A stretch of DNA of 64,000 bases. Origin: a virus. Both the position numbers and the translations under genes were made by a program. The first letter of the stretch is position 1. Each line of letters opens with the position of its first letter. Positions 261 to 62,946 of the stretch are shown here, piece by piece. The notes below the pieces were generated by a model. That model did no database searches. It was not told the origin of the DNA and worked only from the letters and a program-made list of their open reading frames with translations. The stretch lies in IMG/VR virus record IMGVR_UViG_3300021963_000069, positions 1 through 64,000 of that record; one strand, 5' to 3'.

Positions 261-782
261 TCAATTCATTAATTTAGAATAGTATTCTACCAGCATTCGT
301 AAGTCCTCAACAGAACCGTTATTTTTCATAACATTTGCTTTTCTTGACACAACAACAATATTTTCGGGAATATAACCTTTTGTATTATCAATTCTATCAA
401 GAGAGGGCGCATACTCTGTTCTCTTTACAAGAGGAACTTTAAATACTGGACACAATTCTGGAATGTGAATATCATTTTGAGTGATTGTACATTCCATATC
501 TTTTTGTTTTGCTCTTTGTCTGGCACTTCTCAACAACTGACTTTCTGGACATTTTTTAGTCCATTTTTTTTGATAATCTGGATTGTTTTTTCTCCATTCA
601 GTCATCAGTTGTTTATAGTGTTCTTTTCTTTCAGAAACATATTTTTTAGTGTGCTCTCTTTTTTCTTTTTTCCTGTAGTTTTTTCTACAGGATTTACACA
701 TACCATCACGACCTCTGACTGAATAATACCAATCAGTTTCTATAATATCAGAAGAACATTTGCGACAGAAGAATGTTTTCAT
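261..782 (-). CDS. HNH homing endonuclease 1 (free-standing)
   Basis: The 173-residue protein begins MKTFFCRKCS. It has an N-terminal zinc-finger-like segment with paired cysteines (C-x2-C near residues 6-9 and C-x2-C near 29-32), a very basic middle, and a C-terminal block SLDRIDNTKGYIPENIVVVS followed by ANVMK, the usual ending of phage HNH nucleases of the LDRID..KGY..xN type. I chose the ATG at 782; a longer frame exists only from a TTG at 824 and would run through the hairpin. The gene lies between an HExxH gene and the glycosylase-like gene and splits off the latter's original start. It probably cleaves phage DNA at the uninterrupted site to spread itself. The preceding hairpin holds a late promoter, so expression is probably late. 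Confidence 0.88.
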   Translation of the reverse strand: MKTFFCRKCSSDIIETDWYYSVRGRDGMCKSCRKNYRKKEKREHTKKYVSERKEHYKQLMTEWRKNNPDYQKKWTKKCPESQLLRSARQRAKQKDMECTITQNDIHIPELCPVFKVPLVKRTEYAPSLDRIDNTKGYIPENIVVVSRKANVMKNNGSVEDLRMLVEYYSKLMN

Positions 783-787
783 TTTAT

Positions 788-820
788 GAATATCTTTTAT
801 TTTATTTATAAAAGATATTC
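788..820 (-). promoter_or_regulatory. Stem-loop with late promoter in front of HNH 1
   Basis: A perfect 13-bp inverted repeat (788-800 with 808-820) encloses a 7-nt loop. The minus-strand late promoter octamer TATAAATA lies at 803-810, spanning the loop and the edge of the upstream arm. The 3-prime arm ends 5 nt before the ATG at 782. Long transcripts from upstream would form the hairpin; late transcripts would start inside it and lack the 5-prime arm. Confidence 0.75.
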
Positions 821-834
821 GCAAATATGTTCAT
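821..834 (-). repeat. Left copy of the target-gene start region (ATG plus codons 2-5)
   Basis: Minus strand reads ATGAACATATTTGC, the expected start (MNIFA) of the glycosylase-like gene, 9 nt after the stop of the HExxH gene. Translation from this ATG now meets a stop after ten codons inside the HNH leader, so this is a stranded remnant of the pre-insertion start. Confidence 0.75.
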
Positions 835-843
835 AATAATTTA

Positions 844-1269
844 TTAAAAACAATACTTTTTGACTACATATTTTACTTCATTTGGTTTATCTTCCATCCA
901 AAATGCTTCCATTTCAATTTGCCGAATACTGGGACCAATCAATTTTACAGCAGATTCCACATCTTGCCTTCTTCTGTCAGAAAGATTCATATTAGAAGAT
1001 GAGATTCCCAAGGGAGTCAAAGATTTGTTCTTACAATATTGAGCCAAATGAACTGACTCGTGTAGTAATGTTTCGTTGATATAATATTTTACATTATCTC
1101 TCGAAACAATTCTGTCGGTACAGATATTCATAGTTTTCTTTGTGGGGTCAAACCACCCATAAATATCGTGTTTTCTACAAATTGGAGCATTTTCAACTAC
1201 TCGAATCTTGCGGGAAACCATTTGATAGATTTCCATAGATTGAGGAGAAAGATAAAATAAGAAATCCAT
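844..1269 (-). CDS. HExxH zinc-metalloprotease-like protein
   Basis: The 141-residue protein contains HESVH at residues 70-74, a zinc-binding HExxH motif, within LLHESVHLAQYC, and a later acidic stretch (EMEAFW near 118-123) that could provide the third ligand. The motif arrangement resembles minimal metallopeptidase (SprT or ImmA-like) folds, but I cannot assign a family. Its ATG overlaps the stop of the sliding clamp gene (TAATG), so the two are translationally coupled. No signal peptide or membrane segment is seen. A peptidase role is inferred from the motif alone. Confidence 0.75.
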   Translation of the reverse strand: MDFLFYLSPQSMEIYQMVSRKIRVVENAPICRKHDIYGWFDPTKKTMNICTDRIVSRDNVKYYINETLLHESVHLAQYCKNKSLTPLGISSSNMNLSDRRRQDVESAVKLIGPSIRQIEMEAFWMEDKPNEVKYVVKKYCF

Positions 1270-1937
1270 TACTCAAAGGTAGAATCGGGTTCCATCGCAA
1301 TCCAATAAGAAAGATTGTATTTGGTGTTTGTAAATTGAGAAAGAAGTTTTTCTGACAGAACTACATCATAAGCACCAGAAATAATCTTACTGAGATTCTC
1401 TACTTTGAAATTAAAAGTAAAGACATTATCAGTCTCTCCCACAACGATAGAATACTCATTAGAGGTATTATTCTTTTTATCACGAACCACCAGACGAATT
1501 ACTCCTGCTTCACCAATCGCAGAAATATCGGGAAGTTGATAGACAGATGCTGCCTTAACAAGTCTTTCGGTAATTCCACTTTCGAGTTGAAAAGAAACAT
1601 CTTTGGAAGGAAGATTGATTTGCTTTTCTGGTGGAGAGACGATTACATTTGGATCTGAATAGAAATACTTGACCCTCCGCTTTCCATCACGAATTGTAAT
1701 GTAACTATCTTCAGAAAAGTCCAAATCAGGATCCTGATGAAGACTCAATCCATTCAGAAACTGATTTAGGTCATAAATCGCAAAGTCACGGGGAAAGTTT
1801 TCGGCAATTTCTGCTTCGGAAAGAATATTTTTGGCGATTGAGATTGTCCTCAATTTATTTCCTTTCTTAACCAAAATAGATTGATTAATACCAGAGAAGT
1901 TTTTGAGAATAGTAATCGTGTTTTCAGAGAGTTTCAT
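1269..1937 (-). CDS. 45: Sliding clamp (T4 gp45 homologue)
   Basis: The product begins MKLSENTITILKNFSGIN, aligning with T4 gp45 (MKLSKDTTALLKNFATIN), continues with AIYDLNQFLNGLSL, and ends YWIAMEPDSTFE against the T4 ending VALEADSTHDF. About 222 residues against 228 in T4. It is the trimeric processivity clamp of the phage polymerase and, in T4, also the activator that tracks along DNA and contacts gp55 for late transcription. The start at 1937 is chosen by alignment; in-frame starts also exist at 1958 (ATG) and 1964 (TTG). It follows the DUF3310-like gene with overlap and is followed by the HExxH gene. Confidence 0.95.
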   Translation of the reverse strand: MKLSENTITILKNFSGINQSILVKKGNKLRTISIAKNILSEAEIAENFPRDFAIYDLNQFLNGLSLHQDPDLDFSEDSYITIRDGKRRVKYFYSDPNVIVSPPEKQINLPSKDVSFQLESGITERLVKAASVYQLPDISAIGEAGVIRLVVRDKKNNTSNEYSIVVGETDNVFTFNFKVENLSKIISGAYDVVLSEKLLSQFTNTKYNLSYWIAMEPDSTFE

Positions 1938-1960
1938 AGTTTTGTCTTTAAGTTTCATAA

Positions 1961-2386
1961 TCAACGGAATTCAGAGAGACCATTATCCTTACGAGAATAA
2001 TGCTTATCAAAGTGAAGTAGTAGCATAGCATAGTGAATGACCTTCAGCAAATCTCGTTTGTTGCGTCCGTCCTTATTCCCATAGCGACTACCATACTTGA
2101 GAATATTTGATTGACAAAACCCGGCGGCAAGTTTTTTAGCTGCCATCAGGTCAATAGTTTGTATGTCCGCGTAATCTTCTTCATCTCCGCAGTAATGCCC
2201 GCTGTATGTGCTGCTGACATAATTTTCAACATCCTTAAGGATTTTATCTTCATTATATTTCCAAAGATGATTTTTTGGTTCGTTCATAGCAGGAGTTTTT
2301 GTCAAATCAACATATCCAGAGTGTTCGTTCATAGTCATTTTATACTCAAGTGATTGCCTTTCATTTTCGGCATTAGAGAAAGCCAT
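1961..2386 (-). CDS. DUF3310-like protein
   Basis: The 141-residue protein ends in a helical region IQTIDLMAAKKLAAGFCQSNILKYGSRYGNKDGRNKRDLLKVIHYA (key elements D-L-M, F..x-N-I-L-K-Y, RY..K, DL.K..HYA), the pattern of DUF3310, a small domain found in many phages and sometimes labelled nucleotide kinase. Function is unknown. The ATG at 2386 is 21 nt from the nearest Shine-Dalgarno (GAGAGAGG); that signal is better placed for an out-of-frame ATG at 2402 opening a 9-codon frame. The start region is duplicated at the beginning of the upstream HNH gene. Confidence 0.65.
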   Translation of the reverse strand: MAFSNAENERQSLEYKMTMNEHSGYVDLTKTPAMNEPKNHLWKYNEDKILKDVENYVSSTYSGHYCGDEEDYADIQTIDLMAAKKLAAGFCQSNILKYGSRYGNKDGRNKRDLLKVIHYAMLLLHFDKHYSRKDNGLSEFR

Positions 2387-2399: not shown

Positions 2400-2429
2400 C
2401 ATAATTAACCTCTCTCAATTATAGCAGAT

Positions 2430-2933
2430 TTAAGGTTGTTGGTCAAGTTGTTTCTGAATGAGTTTTTGTCGCTCGTCAAAAGAAAGATTTATCCAATAAC
2501 TATGTTTTACTGCCATTTCAGCATCACTATGTTTTTTGTGACAAGTTCTACAAAGGAGACGACACTTCTCAACTTCTTTCCACCACAAGTCTAAAGAACA
2601 ACCAATATTTCCAATAGTTAGGGTTTTATGTGCTGGGTCAATATGGTCAAACTCAAGATTTTCAGTTTTTCCACACCAAACACATTTTCCTCCAAGTTTT
2701 TCTTTTGCTTGTTCTTTTAATCGTTTTCTTCGGTTGTTATTATTTTTAGTGTTTTGTTCTTTTAATTTTTCTTTGTTTTTTTCATAATACTTTAAATGCC
2801 TATCATTACATTTTTCTTTATTTTTGGAATAATATTCTCTATCAGCAAGGCGTTTTGCTTCTTTTTGCTCCTCCGTCATTTTTTGACGATATTTTTTATT
2901 GTATTCTGATTTTTCTTCTTTTGTAAGTGCCAT
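2430..2933 (-). CDS. HNH homing endonuclease 2
   Basis: The 167-residue protein has a Lys/Glu-rich basic coiled N-terminal half (residues about 1-80) and a classical HNH domain: GGKCVWCGKTENLEFDHIDP, then C-R-L-L-C-R-T-C-H-K-K-H. The zinc-binding CxxC pairs and the D-H pair are all present, so the nuclease looks intact. It lies between the cobS-like gene and the DUF3310-like gene, with its ATG inside a copy of the latter's start region. Its leader is a stem-loop holding a late promoter. A site-specific, self-spreading role is inferred from the family and the insertion signature. Confidence 0.9.
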   Translation of the reverse strand: MALTKEEKSEYNKKYRQKMTEEQKEAKRLADREYYSKNKEKCNDRHLKYYEKNKEKLKEQNTKNNNNRRKRLKEQAKEKLGGKCVWCGKTENLEFDHIDPAHKTLTIGNIGCSLDLWWKEVEKCRLLCRTCHKKHSDAEMAVKHSYWINLSFDERQKLIQKQLDQQP

Positions 2934-2947
2934 AATTACCGAAAAGT
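2929..2947. repeat. Upstream copy of direct repeat at HNH insertion 2
   Basis: Matches 2382-2399 (see that entry). The copy supplies the start codon of HNH 2 and part of the 3-prime arm of its hairpin. Confidence 0.75.
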
Positions 2948-2981
2948 GCTATTAATATTTATACGAATAACACTTTTCAGT
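2938..2981 (-). promoter_or_regulatory. Stem-loop with late promoter in its loop, before HNH 2
   Basis: Arms 2938-2953 and 2966-2981 pair over 16 positions (14 Watson-Crick, 2 G-U on the RNA). The 12-nt loop holds TATAAATA (2956-2963, minus strand). The 3-prime arm ends 5 nt before the ATG. Confidence 0.8.
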
Positions 2982-2993
2982 AAAAAAGTTTTA

Positions 2994-4124
2994 TTAGAAA
3001 AGAACTTCGTGACCACCCTCAATAGTCAGTTCAAGTTCGGTGGGCATCTTAAAATCGGCATCTACTTTATCATACAGTTCAAGAAAAGCAGTTTTAGTTT
3101 CATCATCAAAACGATTAGTACAAACCTGAATTGCCTTTGCCTTATCGCCAAAAATAGCATAAGCACGAATGATATGAACCAAACGACGAGTGCTGATGAT
3201 TTCTTCAATACCGCCATCATAGAAGGTTTTACGAATAATATCCCCCCAATCGCACAATTTCTTACAGAAATCATCAATCTCAGTCAGACCCAGAGTGGCA
3301 GCAATACCCTGAAGAATACGGATTTCCACAGAACTGGCGGGATAAGGTTGCTCGAAAGTGACCGGGAAGCGTTCCAAGAATGCCTCATTAAGCACGTTGG
3401 TGCCGATAAAGCGACCATCATCAGAACCCTTACCCTTGGTGTTTGCGGTCGCAATCACATTAAATCCGGCAGCGGGTTTGACGAAGCGACCAATCTTCTT
3501 CAGGAAGACACCTTTACCTTCCAGAACAGACTGAAGACACAGGATTTTATTGGAAGCAAGGTCAATCTCATCGAGAAGCAATACGGCACCACGCTCAAGT
3601 GCTTCGATGACTGGACCATTATGCCACGCGGTTTCACCATTCACAAGGCGAAATCCACCAATCAAATCGTCCTCATCTGTTTCGATAGTCACATTCACCC
3701 TAATCATTTCACGCTTCAGCTGAGCACACGCCTGCTCCACACTAAACGTTTTGCCATTACCCGAAAGACCCGTAATGAACGTAGGGTAAAAGAGACGGGA
3801 CTGAATAATGCGTTTAATGTCAGCAAAATTACCAAACTTGACGAAGGTATCATCTTTATCAGGAATAAGGTCTTGTTGATGGTCGGGAAGAACGGCAACA
3901 CTCTGAAAAGAACGCTCGATTTCTTCTACTTTATCTTGGGTGATTTCTAGGTTCCACTTACCACGACCAATCTTATGGTGAGAAAGTTTGTTGCTTACGG
4001 TTTGGTAGTTAAGACCACGAGAGGCACAAAAACCTTTGAGGTCGCCAGAAGTGATTTCTGGACCATAAAGTTCTTGAATGCTTTCAATAAGTTGCTGGTC
4101 GTTCACGGATGATTTACGAGGCAT
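2994..4124 (-). CDS. cobS: MoxR/CobS-type AAA+ ATPase
   Basis: The 376-residue protein has Walker A GLSGNGKT at 119-126, Walker B LLLDEID at 182-188, a sensor-1-like IATANTKG near 223, and an ERFP arginine-finger-like element, all typical of the MoxR branch. Cyanophage homologues are labelled cobS after the cobaltochelatase subunit. Residues 1-60 look like a helix-turn-helix-like N-terminal extension. The gene shortly upstream encodes a VWA protein with HExxH; MoxR ATPases usually work with VWA partners to remodel or insert a metal cofactor, so the two probably act together. A terminator and TATAAT-like element separate them, giving this gene its own transcript. Cobalt chelation itself is not shown by the sequence. 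Confidence 0.85.
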   Translation of the reverse strand: MPRKSSVNDQQLIESIQELYGPEITSGDLKGFCASRGLNYQTVSNKLSHHKIGRGKWNLEITQDKVEEIERSFQSVAVLPDHQQDLIPDKDDTFVKFGNFADIKRIIQSRLFYPTFITGLSGNGKTFSVEQACAQLKREMIRVNVTIETDEDDLIGGFRLVNGETAWHNGPVIEALERGAVLLLDEIDLASNKILCLQSVLEGKGVFLKKIGRFVKPAAGFNVIATANTKGKGSDDGRFIGTNVLNEAFLERFPVTFEQPYPASSVEIRILQGIAATLGLTEIDDFCKKLCDWGDIIRKTFYDGGIEEIISTRRLVHIIRAYAIFGDKAKAIQVCTNRFDDETKTAFLELYDKVDADFKMPTELELTIEGGHEVLF

Positions 4125-11497: not shown

Positions 11498-12015
11498 CGA
11501 TTTCCGTTTCTATACTGAATGGCATCTTTCATACTATTGAACTCTGAATTGTTTCCAGAAAGCAATCCATCATCTACAGTCATAACCTCATCAAACCCAG
11601 TTTTTTCAATAATCTTGGTTTTTATTTCCAGTTGTCTTTTCTCCTTTTGTATTCTTCTCAAAAAGGCATAATGTATAATTTGAGTAAAATACGCAAAAGG
11701 GTTGGTAGATTTCTCTGGGTCAAAATTATGAATATACTGAACGGAGTTTTCTATTCCATCAGAAATCATATCCTCTCTAAACATATAATTTACAAAGTTT
11801 GGTTTATATGATAAGTGAGTTGCTATTTTAAGAAAACATTCTCCAATATAATTTGGAATAAGTGGTTTTCCTTCCCATGGTTTAGATTTTGGAGGATACT
11901 CATCATATTTTTCATAATATTCTTGAGCAGCCTTCTTTACCTTATTACGATAAACAATAATAGCGTCTAATAACTCTCTATTATTCACATAATGTTCGGA
12001 GTTCTTCTTTGGCAT
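11494..12015 (-). CDS. 55: Late sigma factor gp55
   Basis: The 173-residue protein (T4 gp55: 185) contains NYIGECFLKIATHLSYKPNF, DMISDGIENSVQYIHNFDPEKSTNPFAYFTQIIHYAFLRRIQKEKRQ, the sigma region 2 core in which FAYFTQIIHYAFLRRI contacts promoter DNA. It directs host RNA polymerase to TATAAATA late promoters, which are abundant in this window. A sigma70-like promoter lies just upstream (12043-12071), fitting early or middle expression. Confidence 0.95.
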   Translation of the reverse strand: MPKKNSEHYVNNRELLDAIIVYRNKVKKAAQEYYEKYDEYPPKSKPWEGKPLIPNYIGECFLKIATHLSYKPNFVNYMFREDMISDGIENSVQYIHNFDPEKSTNPFAYFTQIIHYAFLRRIQKEKRQLEIKTKIIEKTGFDEVMTVDDGLLSGNNSEFNSMKDAIQYRNGNR

Positions 12016-62232: not shown

Positions 62233-62684
62233 GTCAGCGGTGCGTTTGACTTCATCACAATAAACCCTAGGACCGGATCCCGCAACCCCTAAACTGTAGC
62301 GTCCTGATACCAAAATCGAAACTCGTTTGATCAGCAACGCTAATGGTTCGAGACTCGCGGTTGGGCAGCAGACCGACTAGACTATGGGAACAACAGAAGA
62401 GGGAGCGCAGAGAGCGCGATGATACAAATCTAGTAACTCACCCTGCCATGGTATAATCTCGTAAAATATAAAGAATAAAGAATCAATTAAATGTAAAAAT
62501 ATAAAGAATAACAAATCGAATCATTCTTTATATCTTTATACTTAGTTAAATGTAATTTTATACTTAGTTAAATGTAAAGATATAAAGAATTAGACAGGAC
62601 TGAATGTAAAGAATAAACCACACCACTGACAATAAATTACATTCAATCCTGAGTAGTTCCTTATATCTTTAGATCTTTAGATCT
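62233..62684. other. 452-bp gene-free region with AT-rich inverted repeats
   Basis: No coding frame is supported. The right part of a GC-mixed section (62340-62460) holds the second 34-bp repeat copy. From 62462 the sequence turns strongly AT-rich with tgtaaagaat-type repeats, a 21-bp direct repeat (62535-62555 and 62557-62577) nested in a perfect 16-bp inverted repeat (62523-62538 with 62575-62590), and a second near-perfect 14-bp inverted repeat (62596-62609 with 62637-62650). Confidence 0.7.
62414..62447 (-). repeat. 34-bp repeat, copy 2 (inverted)
   Basis: Its reverse complement matches 60843-60876 at 27 of 34 positions. Confidence 0.6.
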
Positions 62685-62816
62685 TTATACCAACCTCGCA
62701 GGACTTCCGCAAGAGATATAAAACTCTACCATACGTTTTGCCTCTTCTAACGTATTAAATGATTGTCTGCGCCATTCACAATCGCCATACGGAATCTGAT
62801 AAGTTACAATAAACAT
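62685..62816 (-). CDS. Very small hypothetical protein
   Basis: The 43-residue protein MFIVTYQIPYGDCEWRRQSFNTLEEAKRMVEFY ends GSPARLV. The pattern (Y.....W....F.T.EEA..MV.FY...GSPARL) is a typical small cyanophage protein. Function unknown. A palindrome array lies directly upstream. Confidence 0.7.
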   Translation of the reverse strand: MFIVTYQIPYGDCEWRRQSFNTLEEAKRMVEFYISCGSPARLV

Positions 62817-62819
62817 GAT

Positions 62820-62946
62820 GATGTAATGCGTGTCGAGATGATGTAATGAATGTGTGTCGAGATGTATGATATGTTATGATATGATACATCTCACGAGATG
62901 TGTATGTAATCTCGACGAGATTTGTGTATATTCTCGTCGAGATTTG
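62820..62946. repeat. Array of ATCTCG-type palindromes
   Basis: Three small palindromes, 62886-62901, 62908-62922 and 62932-62942, all built on ATCTCG/CGAGAT, followed by two further single CGAGATG copies (near 62834-62840 and 62858-62864) up to the start of the 43-residue gene. It fills the whole gap between two genes. Confidence 0.75.

Follow-up and report, generated by a model that had tools for sequence, protein, structure and literature searches.

The question raised by this locus is why a late promoter should lie in the loop of a long hairpin directly in front of a putative homing-endonuclease gene, and what the arrangement might do for that gene. The window (the whole stretch of 64,000 nucleotides analysed here) carries it just behind a cobS-like gene, where the following features lie in order of transcription:

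2994..4124, minus strand: cobS-like MoxR ATPase gene (phrog_249, E 2e-130), the gene invaded by the cassette described below
2936..2983, minus strand: hairpin (5' arm 2983-2966, loop 2965-2954, 3' arm 2953-2936; 18 pairs, -20.7 kcal/mol, z -8.5)
2956..2963, minus strand: T4-type late promoter octamer TATAAATA, the whole of it in the hairpin loop and invariant in all aligned homologues
2430..2933, minus strand: HNH 2, an HNH endonuclease of 167 aa and probable homing endonuclease (PHROG HNH families, best E 7e-17; CxxC...FDHIDP...CxxCH motif kept in homologues)

Read 5' to 3' on the minus strand (2983..2936) the hairpin is UUACUGAAAAGUGUUAUU-CGUAUAAAUAUU-AAUAGCACUUUUCGGUAA; it begins 10 nt after the cobS stop, and the ATG of HNH 2 at 2933 lies 2 nt past it. 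An earlier note on this DNA had described 16 pairs with the octamer wholly in the loop; the hairpin is real and slightly longer than first described, with 18 unbroken pairs (two of them G-U) around the 12-nt loop CGTATAAATATT. For the minus-strand RNA the folding energy is -20.7 kcal/mol, with a mean of -4.1 for shuffled sequences (z = -8.5; 0 of 200 dinucleotide shuffles were equally stable), and the hairpin remains the dominant structure when folded in 181 nt of context. The plus strand was rejected as the folding strand because the G-U pairs there turn into A-C and the helix is weaker, so that the minus strand is the relevant one. On that strand it is the second-longest such helix within the 64-kb window. 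An Rfam search with the hairpin gave no matching family. The number of TATAAATA octamers in the window is by itself not significant (15 found, 9.4 expected), but two of the 15 lie in helices of at least 14 pairs and each of these precedes an HNH gene (HNH 2 and HNH 1), the remainder being weakly structured and mostly upstream of structural genes (baseplate, tail sheath, scaffold).

Relatives of HNH 2 were found in 27 IMG/VR loci (70-98% identity), with gene start and leader present in 25. A hairpin with TATAAATA in its loop is kept in 25/25 of these leaders, so that homologues without conserved pairing, which the earlier note had named as the finding that would count against it, were not encountered. 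Among isolate genomes no close relatives of HNH 2 were found, the best tblastn matches spanning just the HNH domain. When distinct cobS 3' flanks were compared, octamer and hairpin were present in all 21 that have the HNH gene and in none of the 89 that lack it; judged from these flanks, the hairpin belongs to the HNH gene. This bears on the reading of the hairpin as the transcription terminator of cobS, for which its position 10 nt behind the cobS stop and the GC-rich hairpin with a T run that follows cobS in uninvaded relatives might speak. However, the stem is AT-rich, no T run follows it on the minus strand, it was not called by a terminator scan, and it accompanies the HNH gene and is missing from uninvaded cobS; we rejected this reading as highly improbable.

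The 46-nt leader core differs between homologues by 7.8% on average; the corresponding figures for the gene are 19.3% (fourfold degenerate sites) and 20% (amino acids). Given this conservation and the z of -8.5, a chance inverted repeat is next to inconceivable, as is a simple border repeat of a mobile element, since the hairpin does sit at the left end of the cassette but the right end carries no matching repeat. Because the helix scarcely varies, covariation is uninformative. Eleven of the 18 stem pairs are invariant across leaders, four show one-sided variation and in one there is a compensatory change, C-G having become U-A in L014; over 22 distinct leaders there was no excess above shuffled controls, and covariation was not used as evidence. 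The RNA-level selection that the earlier note had read from the G-U pairs was thus not brought out by the covariation check it proposed, which yielded the one double change; what stands is that a U-G pair in 18 of the 22 distinct leaders, replaced by U-A in the other 4, fits RNA pairing, and no more than that. The same pair is relevant to a reading in which the palindrome acts as DNA, as an operator or binding site, for example for the endonuclease itself repressing its own late promoter as I-TevI does. Near-invariance of the sequence beyond what pairing needs is in keeping with such an operator, and there are precedents in the I-TevI operator over its promoter, which is proven, and the putative operators of I-TevII and I-TevIII (PMC2988022). 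The U-G pair of the 18 leaders, though, breaks the DNA dyad and leaves the RNA helix intact, and the leader is no more like four uninvaded cobS target regions than shuffled controls are. We regard the operator as unlikely.

We consider it very probable that the hairpin instead acts as a timing lock for a mobile gene that encodes an HNH homing endonuclease. In T4 late promoters TATAAATA lies at about -13 to -6; with the octamer at 2963-2956 this geometry therefore predicts a late start near 2950, at the fourth base of the 3' arm. By its position in the sequence the late promoter, with its octamer in the loop and its predicted start inside the 3' arm, would give a late RNA without the 5' arm. 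Two genes of T4-type late transcription are encoded nearby in the phage:

11506..12012, minus strand: homologue of the late sigma factor gp55 (phrog_234, E 3.7e-65)
1269..1949, minus strand: gp45 sliding clamp, the T4-type late transcription activator (phrog_223, E 1.3e-84)

The reviewed cyanophages have NATAAATA late promoters together with gp55, gp33 and gp45 (PMC2984593). Read-through RNA from cobS would contain both arms and would fold, burying the translation start region so that no endonuclease is made. Once gp55 and gp45 activate late transcription, RNA polymerase would start about 6 nt downstream of the loop octamer, and the resulting RNA, without the 5' arm, could not fold in this way and would allow HNH 2 to be translated. 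Lock and gene would move as one cassette, entering the -35 box at the cobS 3' end. The sequence itself shows the hairpin, the octamer, how exactly both are tied to the gene, and the junctions; the start site, the translational block, the timing and the homing activity are what we infer.

Modelling of the energy needed to open the start region (-15 to +6) gave values that agree with such a lock: 18.2 kcal/mol in read-through RNA against 3.2 in late RNA for HNH 2, and 13.1 against 2.4 for HNH 1. The median gain was 14.2 kcal/mol over 20 HNH 2 loci and 11.2 over 7 HNH 1 loci, compared with 3.4 for 47 other homing-gene leaders and 2.4 for 59 non-homing late genes. T4 controls put through the same calculation behave alike (read-through/late: I-TevII 15.3/9.3, segB 18.9/6.4, gene e 18.4/2.3). 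As a Shine-Dalgarno sequence the HNH 2 leader has only CGGU ahead of the ATG, and most homologues have no G-rich stretch. Since a good Shine-Dalgarno is wanting, what the lock covers would be the start region as a whole and not a consensus site as in T4, and the model would point to start-region occlusion rather than textbook Shine-Dalgarno sequestration. In every homologue the 3' arm overlaps the start region. This also weighs against the idea that the role of the hairpin lies in mRNA protection or processing (stabilisation of the 5' end or an RNase site) and not in translational control; RNase E processing has been described for segB and mobE transcripts, but the late transcript here would be without the 5' arm, and we think this idea very unlikely.

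How the lock and its gene come to lie behind cobS could be seen by comparison with about 90 uninvaded cobS genes, whose 3' end reads ...(A/C/G)TT GAC, about 18 variable nt, TGA TATAATTGGGG... In invaded loci the part from GAC onward, with the variable codons and the intergenic sequence, has moved behind the HNH gene and gives it its last codons and stop. The junctions in the window, 3003|3002 and 2445|2444, delimit a cassette of 558 bp:

2445..3002, minus strand: mobile cassette comprising a substitute cobS tail, the hairpin with its late promoter, and HNH 2 up to ...CAACTT (junctions set against about 90 uninvaded cobS ends)
2994..3002, minus strand: the two codons and the stop with which cobS now ends (CTT TTC TAA), substitutes brought in by the cassette (by comparison with uninvaded cobS ends)
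2430..2444, minus strand: former cobS tail, which now provides HNH 2 with its final codons and stop (97.9% match to the uninvaded locus L217 across 95 nt)
2418..2446, minus strand: sigma70-type promoter serving the downstream gene, TTGACC-17-TATAAT (agrees with the consensus at 11 of 12 bases and has an extended -10), overlapping the cobS end, with the insertion splitting TT|GAC of its -35 box
1961..2386, minus strand: DUF3310 gene downstream of the restored promoter (PF11753, E 8.5e-9)

In other invaded loci the sequence to the right of the junction matches other uninvaded cobS tails; thus L022 and uninvaded L181 match at 57/60 nt to the right and 15/40 to the left, and five other pairs are alike. 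The substitute tail makes cobS end in GGHEV-LF stop in the window and GGHEV-SF stop in many other loci, compared with GGHEV-DLNRTF stop in uninvaded L164. Of 86 uninvaded loci, 84 have a TTG at a distance of exactly 17 nt upstream of the -10; in all 19 of the 19 invaded loci CAACTT, with which the cassette ends, restores TTGAC at this spacing. In the uninvaded alleles nearest to the window lineage (L216, L217, L219) cobS already ends before TTGAC, which leaves the order of events there uncertain. Right behind the sigma70-type promoter, in most uninvaded related loci and here (2446-2382, minus strand, with the hairpin at 2425-2382), a hairpin follows the cobS stop; in relatives it is GC-rich, GGGGAAGGTAAA...CCTTCCCC, and its 5' arm resembles a strong Shine-Dalgarno, with the ATG of what may be a mini reading frame, ending where the DUF3310 gene starts.

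On balance we favour the view that this homing cassette is self-contained and carries control elements at both its borders, the late promoter within an RNA lock on the left and, on the right, the exact bases that rebuild a sigma70-type -35 box, so that cobS would stay complete, the downstream promoter would survive and the old cobS tail would serve as the endonuclease C-terminus. Its architecture is taken directly from the sequence; both promoters would be active and the enzyme would target the -35 box. We know of no phage element of this two-border form, although our search was not exhaustive. The target is doubly constrained, as a coding end and as a -35 box, and the cassette repairs both, which illustrates how a mobile gene can settle within a conserved gene at no evident cost to that gene.

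The median dN/dS of HNH 2, 0.19 across homologues, indicates purifying selection on the HNH motif. HNH 2 genes that are 96-99% identical adjoin right flanks just 49-67% identical, and identity in HNH 2 shows hardly any correlation with that in the right flank (rho 0.17), as against 0.56 with that in cobS. Invaded, uninvaded and decayed alleles occur at one fixed site, the decayed ones being L071 (around 765-900), which keeps the 5' arm and the last codons, and L183 (after cobS), which keeps the last codons only. This pattern, with near-identical genes beside unlike right flanks, is that expected of a homing gene and fits its repeated gain at this site.

The same design occurs a second time near the start of the window:

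783..825, minus strand: HNH 1 hairpin, late octamer 810-803, of unrelated sequence and the same design (octamer/helix scan)
264..782, minus strand: HNH 1, an endonuclease VII-like homing endonuclease candidate (phrog_3322, E 1.9e-30)

Here the octamer is partly buried in the stem, and comparison of 825-783 with the HNH 2 hairpin bore out the earlier note in that the two sequences are unrelated. HNH 1 is found behind gp45, behind another gene and, in the window, behind a gene at 1269-844, with its own hairpin at each site. An independent origin of the design, one of the two possibilities first raised, is supported by these comparisons: HNH 1 and HNH 2 match different endonuclease families, there is no relation between their stems, and in related phages other HNH and GIY-YIG genes carry helices across the octamer whose sequence differs again. 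Behind HNH 1 (264-178, minus strand, and L057-L064) the next gene seems to be without its ATG where HNH 1 is intact; the native ATGAACATCTTTG reads ATCAACATATTTG or ATCAATATTTTTG there, and the gene may start at ATC, ATT or further upstream. Another Endo VII-like homing gene (MYCLECNSS...) lies behind gp45 in L072, L073, L079, L102 and L242, with a wide helix of yet another sequence around TATAAATA or GATAAATA.

We surveyed those TATAAATA promoters of the fetched loci that have a reading frame behind them (138 distinct cases) for helices, at least as stable as -10 kcal/mol, that pair the pre-start stretch with the late leader. Such helices were found in 8 of 22 clusters of homing endonucleases (HNH, Endo VII-like, GIY-YIG) against 3 of 52 other clusters (Fisher p = 0.002, to be taken as indicative, as some of the loci had been retrieved with HNH queries and the clusters are not fully independent). 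The endonuclease leaders of ACG-2014f, DSL-LC02 and RB11-B have no strong octamer-spanning helix; common as it is in the homing genes of cyanophages, the design is thus not universal. HNH 3 (7314-6571 in the window; octamer 7347-7340) and F-CphI of S-PM2 (L246:8600-8685) have a terminator-like hairpin directly before the late promoter, which, from its placement, would be another way of cutting off read-through. Near the window end (62488-62944) long inverted repeats are clustered, with as many as 27 pairs on the plus strand and with sequence repeated in both orientations.

The hairpin-lock design itself is already known from T4-type homing genes, and its mechanism is established for genes of T4, the same arrangement of hairpin and late promoter having been published for I-TevI, I-TevII, I-TevIII, segB and mobE of Aeh1 (PMC2988022; PMC3014915). 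T4 I-TevII (checked here), like I-TevI and I-TevIII (PMC2988022), resembles HNH 2 in having TATAAATA in loop or stem, a 3' arm over the start region and a late RNA without the 5' arm. These three are intron-encoded, with a sequestered consensus Shine-Dalgarno and an unrelated stem sequence, whereas HNH 2 is free-standing and has no good Shine-Dalgarno; sequestration is stated for the three intron-encoded enzymes and is no condition for free-standing members. The leader of T4 gene e (lysozyme), with two late octamers on the 5' side of a start-region helix, follows the same timing logic but belongs to no mobile element (PMC3014915). F-CphI of cyanophage S-PM2 is free-standing, Endo VII-like as HNH 1 is, and has TATAAATA 31 nt before its start; unlike HNH 2 it has no octamer-spanning helix, the terminator hairpin preceding its promoter. 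The present locus extends a control strategy known from three T4 intron genes and two free-standing genes to T4-like cyanophages, and the building of locks from different sequences by unrelated endonuclease families speaks for a general selection in favour of holding the endonuclease back until late infection. T4 segB (checked here) and Aeromonas phage Aeh1 mobE (PMC2988022, PMC3014915) are, like HNH 2, free-standing with a start-region hairpin and late promoter, mobE being HNH as well. T4 segB has tRNA genes on either side and mobE interrupts nrdA, whereas the HNH 2 cassette sits in a cobS that keeps one complete reading frame through the substitute tail; what is new, on the comparison of these loci, is that the lock is the conserved left end of a cassette entering the cobS end without breaking the neighbouring promoter.
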